Below are positions 1 to 57,976 of a stretch of DNA of 64,000 bases, one piece after another. Under the pieces are notes generated by a model. It was not told where the DNA came from. It worked only from the letters and a program-made list of their open reading frames with translations, and searched no databases. The position numbers and the translations under genes are program-made. Positions within the stretch are counted from its first letter, which is position 1. Every line of letters starts with the position of its first letter. The stretch comes from Massospora cicadina (lineage: Eukaryota; Entomophthoromycota; Entomophthoromycetes; Entomophthorales; Entomophthoraceae): the NCBI GenBank assembly GCA_022478985.1, contig JAKSZP010012140.1, positions 41,435-105,434 on the forward strand, written 5' to 3'.

Positions 1-431
1 AAGAAAAAAGATTTTCATGAACAGTTCAATAATGAGGATTTGGAATTGTATTATGAAGAGAATTCCTCAAAAACCTGGAAAGAGAGAGAGATCTATCAGT
101 TCAAGACTATTTACACTTGATATAAAAATTTCTAATCTACATATACATTTTGAGCGCGTCAAGGAGACCACTAGAAGAGCACAGTAAGCTTCCATTCCAA
201 TAGTGAGAGGACCTTCACCCATAGTGAATCTTAAATCTGCCATAAAGGATTTGAAAATGAATTTTTTTCTCAAGTAAGAGAATGGGATAAACATTTGGCT
301 CTGAATGATTATGGAGAGCATTTAGATAGCATGAAAGCAGGCTGTTTAATATGGACAAGAGTATAGACAAGTTGAAGGAATAACCGCATACTATACCAGA
401 ACCTACCTTTACTTAAATAGTCACACATTTA
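1..431. other. No gene recognised; presumed 5' part of E1 gag
   Basis: This stretch precedes the recognisable capsid homology of E1. By comparison with E3 and E6 it should encode the coiled-coil N-terminal part of Gag, but no convincing reading frame survives. No LTR, tRNA or promoter was recognised. Confidence 0.3.
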
Positions 432-510
432 AGAAACAGGTATTGACATTGATGAATCCCCCCCTCGGGTTGGGACCATCTAGTACTAAAAAAAAGAGAC
501 AGGTATTGAC
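432..510 (+). mobile_element. Ultrashort retroposon insertion 1 with 16-bp target-site duplication
   Basis: A 47-base insert (448-494) ends in CCATCTAGTACTA plus an A-tail. It is flanked by direct repeats at 432-447 and 495-510 sharing ACAGGTATTGAC, 15 of 16 bases identical. It is the longest of four inserts in the window with the same 3' end; its 5' extension is C-rich followed by GGGTTGGGA. The TSD and A-tail fit target-primed reverse transcription with extreme 5' truncation. Confidence 0.85.
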
Positions 511-935: not shown

Positions 936-937
936 GA

Positions 938-978
938 ACAGTAATGCTGATCTAGTACTAAAAAAACAGTAATGCTGA
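938..978 (+). mobile_element. Ultrashort retroposon insertion 2 with 13-bp target-site duplication
   Basis: A 15-base insert, TCTAGTACTAAAAAA (951-965), is flanked by perfect direct repeats ACAGTAATGCTGA at 938-950 and 966-978. It has the same 3' end and A-tail as the inserts at 448, 56635 and 57914, and is the shortest of the four. It interrupts the E1 gag relic. Confidence 0.88.
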
Positions 979-56499: not shown

Positions 56500-56880
56500 A
56501 TCCTTTCCTCCCTTTTAGAGAAACTCAGCACTACTATTCTGGTGGATACTGGCACCACTGAAAACTTTATGGACCAGTGCCTAGCTGACTATCTTTGGGC
56601 TGAGTTACTTGCCAGATAGTATGGTAAGGGGAGGACCATCTAGTACTAAAAAAAGTAGTATGGTAAGGGGAGGGGCGTCCCAAGGTATTCCCGCTTTGAA
56701 GATCATTGAGATGGTGGACTATCAGGTTGGCAATTGCCACTTGTCAGATCACTTCCAAGCTATCAAAAAACCTCTTATACCCTATCATCTGGGTGTGGAG
56801 TGGTGGCGGAAGTTTGACGTTAGAACCAACTTGAAAGAGAATACCCTATCCTTAACAGTAAAAAGGGCCGCACACTAGTT
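56500..56880 (+). pseudogene. Protease of B3, DTG triad intact
   Basis: TTILVDTGTTENFMDQCLAD (56530-56590) holds the retropepsin triad at 56545-56556. After the ultrashort insertion come IIEMVDYQVGNCHLSDHFQA and YHLGVEWWRKFDVRTNLKEN. Insert plus TSD copy add 39 bases, which keeps the phase, but the inserted TAG reads as a stop. Confidence 0.82.
56617..56673 (+). mobile_element. Ultrashort retroposon insertion 3 with 18-bp target-site duplication
   Basis: A 21-base insert ACCATCTAGTACTAAAAAAAG (one base over a 20-mer if split as ACCATCTAGTACTA plus A-run plus G) at 56635-56655. It is flanked by perfect 18-bp repeats TAGTATGGTAAGGGGAGG (56617-56634 and 56656-56673). Same 3' end as the other three. 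It lies in the B3 protease. Confidence 0.9.
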
Positions 56881-57009: not shown

Positions 57010-57976
57010 TTCTCTTTTGATGCAGCTTTGGCTGACGCACTACTTGATCATTCCAAGTATGACCGTGACTTCAAACTCACTGTGGATCTGGTGCATATTT
57101 CTTCTCCAATTTACCCCTTGACCATCTGGGAAGAAGAGGCGTTAAATTTGTGGGTGAAGGAGCAGTTAGCCAAAGGTGCGATTTTTCAGCGGACCTCCCC
57201 TGTTTGCTCCCCTCTTCTCTTTGTTGAGAAGGCTGATGGTCCTCTGCATTCATGCGTAGACTATGGGAACCTCAACAACGTTACTGTACCAGAACTCCAT
57301 CACATCCCTTTAGATTCCCAGATTGCACGCTATGTTTGAGAAGGCGAAGGTCTTCTCAAAGTTGGATTGCCTCAATGCGTTCAATAAGATTTGGATTAAA
57401 AAGGGACAAGAGTGGTTGACCGCATTCTGCACCAGAAAAGGGAATTTCCAGTTTTGAGTCATTCCATTTAGGCTTAAGAATGCCCCTGCTATTTTTCAAC
57501 GCCGCATTGATGCAGCGTTGGGGACATGTTAGGGGTATATGCGGTTGCCTACATGGATGATATCCTTGAGTTTTCCAAAAACCAGAGTCCCATGCAGTAC
57601 ATCTTCAGCAAGTGGTAAAGAGGTTAAAGGCAGCCAGCCTTACGTTGAAGATTACCAAGTGTGAATCTTTAAGTCCTAGGTCACTTTTCTGGGCAACGTT
57701 ATGTTTGACCAAGGACACATGATAACTCCAGACAAGGAGAAGGCTATTCATGAGTGGCCCACCCCCACCTCATTCATGAATATGAGGAGCTTTTTGAGGA
57801 CGTGTACGTTCCTTAAGAAGTTCACACCCAATCTTTCTGAGGTGGCAGCTCAATTATACAAGGCTAGCGGTGCCAAGGTGCTTCAGTAGTCCCCCATTTT
57901 GGAGGATGCTTTCTTTTTTTAGTACTAGATGGTTGGAGGATGCTTTCCAAGCAGTTAAGTGCACCTTGTTGTCCAC
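57010..57976 (+). pseudogene. Reverse transcriptase of B3, YMDD retained
   Basis: YDRDFKLTVDLVHISSPIYP, then AKGAIFQRTSPVCSPLLFVE,KADG (57150-57240) and SCVDYGNLNNVTVPELHHIP are the fingers. KVFSKLDCLNAFNKIWIKKG and LKNAPAIFQRRIDAA are the palm. AYMDDILEFSK (57546-57580) is the catalytic box. GHMITPDKEKAIHEWPTPTS follows. Frameshifts near 57330 and 57525 and a few stops break it. Ultrashort insertion 4 and then E6 interrupt the connection region. Confidence 0.88.
57899..57947 (-). mobile_element. Ultrashort retroposon insertion 4 with 15-bp target-site duplication
   Basis: A 19-base insert (57914-57932) reads CCATCTAGTACTAAAAAAA on the - strand, flanked by perfect 15-bp repeats TTGGAGGATGCTTTC (57899-57913 and 57933-57947). 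It is opposite in orientation to the other three. It interrupts the RT-RNase H connection of B3: ILEDAF reads on both sides. Confidence 0.9.

Follow-up and report, generated by a model that had tools for sequence, protein, structure and literature searches.

The window, as the whole analysed stretch of 64,000 nucleotides of Massospora cicadina DNA is called here, hosts four very short inserts. All end in the 3' terminus of a LINE followed by an A-run, and all are flanked by target site duplications (TSDs; Table 1). An original prediction, made from the sequence alone, had placed four such inserts at these sites and had described three of the TSDs as perfect. All four are present, and three of four TSDs are free of mismatches; lengths differ from the predicted ones by about one base because the A-run overlaps the start of the TSD. 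The pattern CTAGTACTAAAA, with one mismatch allowed, has four matches in the window, all exact, against a mean of 0.55 in shuffled sequences, none of which (0/100) reaches four.

Table 1. LINE-derived inserts and flanking duplications in the window
Feature	Position	Strand	Description
Insert 1	448..493	+	roughly 40 nt from the LINE 3' end, spanning the predicted hairpin in full and falling in the second stop zone, and A-run
Insert 1, 5' TSD copy	431..447	+	17 bp, one mismatch with partner
Insert 1, 3' TSD copy	494..510	+	17 bp
Insert 2	951..964	+	10 nt of LINE and A-run; among the shortest
Insert 2, 5' TSD copy	937..950	+	14 bp, perfect
Insert 2, 3' TSD copy	965..978	+	14 bp, perfect
Insert 3	56635..56655	+	14 nt of LINE and A-run
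Insert 3, 5' TSD copy	56617..56634	+	18 bp, perfect
Insert 3, 3' TSD copy	56656..56673	+	18 bp, perfect
Insert 4	57914..57932	-	13 nt of LINE and A-run, opposite strand
Insert 4, TSD copy on A-tail side	57899..57913	-	15 bp, perfect
Insert 4, TSD copy on truncated side	57933..57947	-	15 bp, perfect

Five pieces of the window surrounding the inserts have no Pfam match. A remnant of a Ty3-type reverse transcriptase (RT) is found at 57010-57336 (PDB 4ol8, E 2.3e-5), flanked by inserts 3 and 4; the arrangement is consistent with LINE stubs having landed in older Ty3 remains. A screen of 359,820 bases for any short insert flanked by TSDs detected 98 pairs, against 2 in shuffled sequence, the latter counted without a complexity filter; the screened loci had been picked by motif, and only the window portion (4/5 pairs) is unbiased. 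Inspected by eye, the pairs of this screen included no further recurring A-tailed class, and many of the remaining ones resemble tandem repeats. Locus L033 features a tandem array (2329-2700, unit of about 100 bp).

The inserts belong to a family dispersed genome-wide. In the assembly (1.47 Gb; 1,469.9 Mb in 16,968 contigs) the exact pattern CTAGTACTAAAAA (motif and A-run) is found 39,550 times, compared with 143 for the reversed pattern, and CCATCTAGTACTAAAAA 32,013 times, against none; these counts were made without a TSD check, include at the shortest length the related family B introduced below, and are lower bounds as counts of repeats. A sample was assembled from 100 motif places (contigs C1-C5, the first of the 39,550) and the four window sites, and the removal of one duplicate left 103. 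TSDs scoring at least 11 flank 81/103 distinct sites, against 2/2048 in a control where flanks were re-paired between sites. Chance occurrence of the motif, or a sequencing artefact, has on these figures a negligible probability, and was dropped after window shuffles, reversed-pattern counts and TSD controls. The search for motif plus A-tail, followed by a TSD test on the flanks, had been suggested in the original prediction, together with the outcomes that would contradict it: hits mostly devoid of TSDs, or all part of one longer repeat without variable 5' truncation. Neither is seen in the sample. Flanks of two sites 6.4 kb apart (L003 and L004, contig C1, about 177896 and 184309) are identical over the stretch compared, and mark a local duplication or an assembly repeat.

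By best alignment 95/103 sites are assigned to the main family, denominated A, and 8/103 to family B, three of the eight being 10-nt matches assignable to neither. Less than 50 nt of LINE sequence is retained in 87/95 family A copies, and 79 of these 87 have a TSD. TSD lengths span 11-23 bp. Among the first 66 sites with a TSD, A occupies TSD base 1 in 61 and base 2 in 56, and base -2 is A or T in 59; the total length of the A-run has its mode at 6, and insert plus TSD add 27-69 bp to the target (66 cases). A-runs tend to be longer in long family A copies (Mann-Whitney p 0.03, 8 versus 87). The 3' end of the inserts is constant, a feature partly set by the search pattern, and the 5' end is variable; the marks of target-primed reverse transcription (TPRT) originally claimed for the window are found across the sample. 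Microhomology at the 5' junction averages 1.08 nt against 0.37 expected (0/2000; 61 junctions without extra nucleotides). Extra nucleotides are found at this junction in 18/79 short copies with TSD, and are in part alignment indels. Among such copies are L061, L066 and L020, and the added nucleotides are A-rich in L061 and flank-like in L020.

The source element was predicted to lie outside the window, and to be recognizable as a long element with the same 3' terminus. Such an element has been found. A 96%-identical sequence of more than 1.5 kb, ending as the inserts do, is common to two of the first eight loci. Five long copies were followed for about 6 kb upstream: four of them extend for 5.5 kb or more, and L018 ends at about 510 nt. 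Flanks of L018 match at 13/14 positions; the other four are without TSD in the stretch searched. No long copy is present in the window, as a 3-kb long-copy locus matches it only at two short inserts, and a copy of about 6 kb has no match to it above 100 bp. In copy L026, read in separate pieces, a long first ORF is followed by Exo_endo_phos (8.2e-6), RVT_1 (3.6e-33) and zf-RVT (2.4e-6) domains. The Exo_endo_phos match exceeds its cut-off, and places an APE-type endonuclease upstream of the RT. The RT piece matches 11 PDB sequences, the best specifically named being human L1 ORF2p (E about 1e-37 to 1e-36), with an alignment to residues 46-555 (8uw3, 4.3e-37). The sole NCBIfam match is to a model of group II RTs, far below its cut-off. 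Among the best 120 of 7,991 scored proteins, the best named match is labelled as a plant LINE protein, and other named matches come from the early-diverging fungi Lichtheimia, Rhizopus and Mucor. Judged by these sequence matches, the inserts derive from a LINE of the L1 type that has endonuclease, RT and zf-RVT domains.

A SINE or another small-RNA parent was also considered, and dropped: the short bodies align to the 3' end of the LINE, and long LINE copies end alike. No SINE head (Pol III promoter, tRNA, 5S or 7SL) was found, the window having no Rfam match at gathering score and the inserts no other body. Because of the fixed 3' end with its A-run, the variable 5' end, the TSDs, the A-rich nick site and the existence of a LINE with the needed domains, the origin of the inserts by TPRT is close to certain. 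L1 LINEs have been reported to account for 6.3% of M. cicadina, a substantial fraction being unique among the relatives compared, and their expansion to have come after that of Ty3 elements (PMC11105155, accessible text). The recent activity claimed in the original prediction stands in relative terms only, on the order of these expansions and on the 64/81 TSDs free of mismatches.

The lengths of the stubs do not form a continuum, a feature overlooked by the original prediction. Sorted by LINE length, the 87 short family A copies fall into two zones located at a predicted terminal hairpin: 63 end at 9-24 nt (zone I), 20 at 38-49 nt (zone II), and only four in the interval 25-37 (25, 26, 29 and 29). 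As the search motif requires 9 nt, zone I cannot begin lower, and shorter stubs would escape. Twelve copies of the 38-49 class match the LINE to exactly 42 nt. No copy has a length of 30-39 nt, against 12.1 expected under constant drop-off (P 2e-6). When the overlap with the TSD is removed the three intervals contain 64, 4 and 19 copies, one of the four being at 36, and the sharp class is split into 6 copies at 41 and 7 at 42. The remaining eight family A copies comprise the four of at least 5.5 kb, that of about 510 nt, and three covered in part. Drop-off per nucleotide is accordingly 6.6% at 9-24, 1.0% at 25-37 and 9.9% at 38-49, followed by one event in 24,657 nt, an exposure including three long copies over part of their length. 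The 58 nt recorded for L028 reflect an internal deletion close to the 3' end of what is a long copy.

Genome-wide pattern counts agree with the sampled distribution. Exact matches of at least 9, 13, 17 and 21 nt number 39,550, 32,013, 18,943 and 12,051, corresponding to losses per nucleotide of 5.1% (9-13), 12.3% (13-17) and 10.7% (17-21). One exact subtype (five C, TT) was followed further, and has 1,227 matches of at least 30 nt, 910 of at least 36, 292 of at least 46 and 242 of at least 53. Its loss is steepest, 10.7% per nucleotide, between 36 and 46; the values on either side, 4.9% (30-36) and 2.6% (46-53), are upper limits, since exact matches are also lost to sequence variation.

A hairpin can be formed by the 37 nt that precede the A-run. 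Its outer stem is GAUG/CAUC (34-37 with 9-12) and its inner stem UCCC/GGGA (28-31 with 14-17); between the two lies an internal loop of 2x1, and beyond the inner stem a bulge of UU and a short stem at the apex. Zone I lies in the 3' arm of this putative structure, and the commonest single stop, 14, is where the inner stem has its foot. Zone II starts at the end of the hairpin, abutting AATAAA (42-47). Family B (L017, L051, L055, L067 and L075) shares with family A most of the last 22 nt or so and the hairpin layout, and has a different body. The layout is maintained by other letters: relative to A, both sides change at 10/36 (U-A to A-U), 11/35 (A-U to C-G) and 14/31 (A-U to C-G), compensatory changes that rest on two families only and are thus few events. 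The A/B pair table was parsed by hand, in a register from which MAFFT departed for the 5' arms. The folding energy of the hairpin is no better than that of shuffled sequences (z -0.07, 0.68, -0.86, -0.78). In L026, taken with about 20 more upstream nucleotides, the minimum-energy fold is a different structure, and minimum-energy folds depart from the shared layout also in family B copies L051, L055 and L075. One or more of the named stem pairs are lost in the long A copies L026, L087 and L104, and in L017, L055, L067 and L075 of family B; in L055 most inner pairs are broken, and in three other B and 3/8 A copies one or two outer ones. Support for the putative hairpin thus comes from covariation between two families, and not from energy.

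With two stop zones and hardly any intermediate lengths, the distribution points to an early barrier followed by processive synthesis. The interpretation favoured here, to which a probability of about 0.6 is given, is that the inserts are 5'-truncated TPRT products of the L1-type LINE, the RT of which would abort at the terminal hairpin and become processive after escape. The hairpin predicted for the last 37 nt or so of the LINE RNA, directly before UAGUACUA-A(n), would load the RT, as the 3' stem-loop does in LINEs of the stringent type. Starting on the A-run, the enzyme would have to melt its own loading signal, and would mostly drop off either in the 3' arm (zone I) or just past the hairpin, at AAUAAA (zone II). 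An RT getting past this region would be committed to processive copying. Aborted cDNAs would still be joined to the target, often via microhomology, to leave a TSD-flanked stub; the microhomology at the 5' junctions is fitting for the capture of unfinished cDNA. The role of the hairpin as barrier is inferred, and its further role as loading site is drawn by analogy with LINEs of the stringent type. Zone II tells against the hairpin model, lying beyond the hairpin and needing an additional cause, for which a factor bound to AAUAAA, or the hairpin re-forming behind the RT, are candidates. Against it is also family B, which has the layout, yet the five clear copies sampled are all long over the stretch covered.

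The chief rival traces the short lengths to the templates rather than to their copying. LINE RNA cut beside or within the hairpin might yield A-tailed 3' fragments of about 42 and of 10-20 nt, retroposed in trans by the LINE machinery, in which case the 42-nt class would amount to a SINE-like parasite of minimal size. This would explain well the sharp class at the hairpin base, whether taken as 12/87 copies at 42 nt or as those at 41 and 42 after correction, and is in line with the empty 30-39 interval. Extra junction nucleotides can arise from run-off at an RNA end, and the 18/79 junctions that have them count on the same side. Zone I is broad (9-24), not the mark of a discrete cut, and microhomology at the 5' junctions suits incomplete cDNA better than run-off; cut templates are on balance unlikely, if a serious competitor. 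Assembly or selection could conceivably distort the picture, long copies being collapsed or purged and short ones retained. Copies of about 6 kb may be under-counted, as the probable source assembly was built from Nanopore reads with an N50 of 5.2 kb (PMC9584336, accessible text). Copies of 50-3000 nt should assemble, however, and a single one (L018) is found among the eight long copies, three of which are covered in part; nor would selection clear the lengths 30-39. Such a distortion is very improbable as the cause of the pattern.

Low processivity, with random 5' truncation at no special stop and a smooth excess of short copies, has data on Anolis in its favour. In this genus many CR1 insertions are shorter than 50 bp, and L1 copies either truncate early or are complete (PMC5389967, accessible text). 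Ultrashort LINE stubs as such are hence not new. Early truncation in Anolis L1 means short of 1 kb, according to the same text, whereas in Massospora it means 9-49 nt, in two zones at the predicted hairpin. Random truncation is already disfavoured by the empty 30-39 interval, and also by a drop-off more than a thousandfold lower beyond 50 nt, a figure drawn from one event. It is held to be improbable, though somewhat less so than distortion by assembly or selection.

Early abortion at the hairpin, the preferred reading, can be taken one step further, and more tentatively. TPRT would here feature an abortive-initiation phase and an escape step, in the way of RNA polymerase leaving a promoter: gripping the 3' hairpin, the RT would make 9-24 or 38-49 nt and mostly fail, and once past the hairpin and AAUAAA would be processive over thousands of nucleotides. 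We regard this analogy as possible, at somewhat less than even odds. If it is true, initiations that failed have left TSD-tagged footprints in the genome by the tens of thousands.

The Massospora LINE resembles human LINE-1 and the L1 superfamily in the APE-type endonuclease domain, the RT aligned to ORF2p, the A-tail, the variable TSDs, the A-rich nick site and the 5' truncation. Human L1 insertions also have 5' junctions with microhomology. The Massospora element differs for the short and tight A-run and for the prevalence of copies below 50 nt. UnaL2 is a stringent-type LINE with a 3' stem-loop. Other LINEs of this type, SART1, ZfL2 and one plant L1 lineage, similarly associate a bulged stem-loop near the 3' end with a short simple tail, and in SART1 poly(A) goes together with stringent recognition (PMC3747384, PMC5135761, accessible text). 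Abortion at specific positions of the stem-loop was not met in the accessible parts of these two sources; the stem-loop described here is a predicted one. Truncated LINE members usually measure 100 to 1,000 bp according to a review (PMC3747384, accessible text). Searches of the openly licensed literature found neither a LINE with stops mapped to its own terminal hairpin nor a description of ultrashort LINE stubs in Massospora; words starting with 'truncat' have 0 occurrences in the main text of PMC11105155, and ultrashort copies were not met in its accessible parts. The new point is the length distribution, with two stop zones at a predicted terminal hairpin.

5' truncation of LINEs is widespread and poorly explained. 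The stops, marked by TSDs and naturally available in very large number, chart the first 50 nt of TPRT at close to single-base resolution, so that the step from initiation to processive copying, and the part a 3' stem-loop plays in it, can be measured from sequence. The data suggest that, in such a family, the majority of insertions can go uncounted when copies are tallied by repeat masking, and that such stubs form a mutation class that is readily overlooked. The original statement that ordinary masking would pass over bodies as truncated as these is plausible.

Two further features of the long elements may be mentioned. The family B copy L017 encodes an ORF in which a CCHC-like motif is discernible by eye. 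In family A, the LINE 5' region of L013, L026 and L028 hosts tandem repeats spaced about 378 bp, which we take to resemble the promoter monomers of some LINEs.
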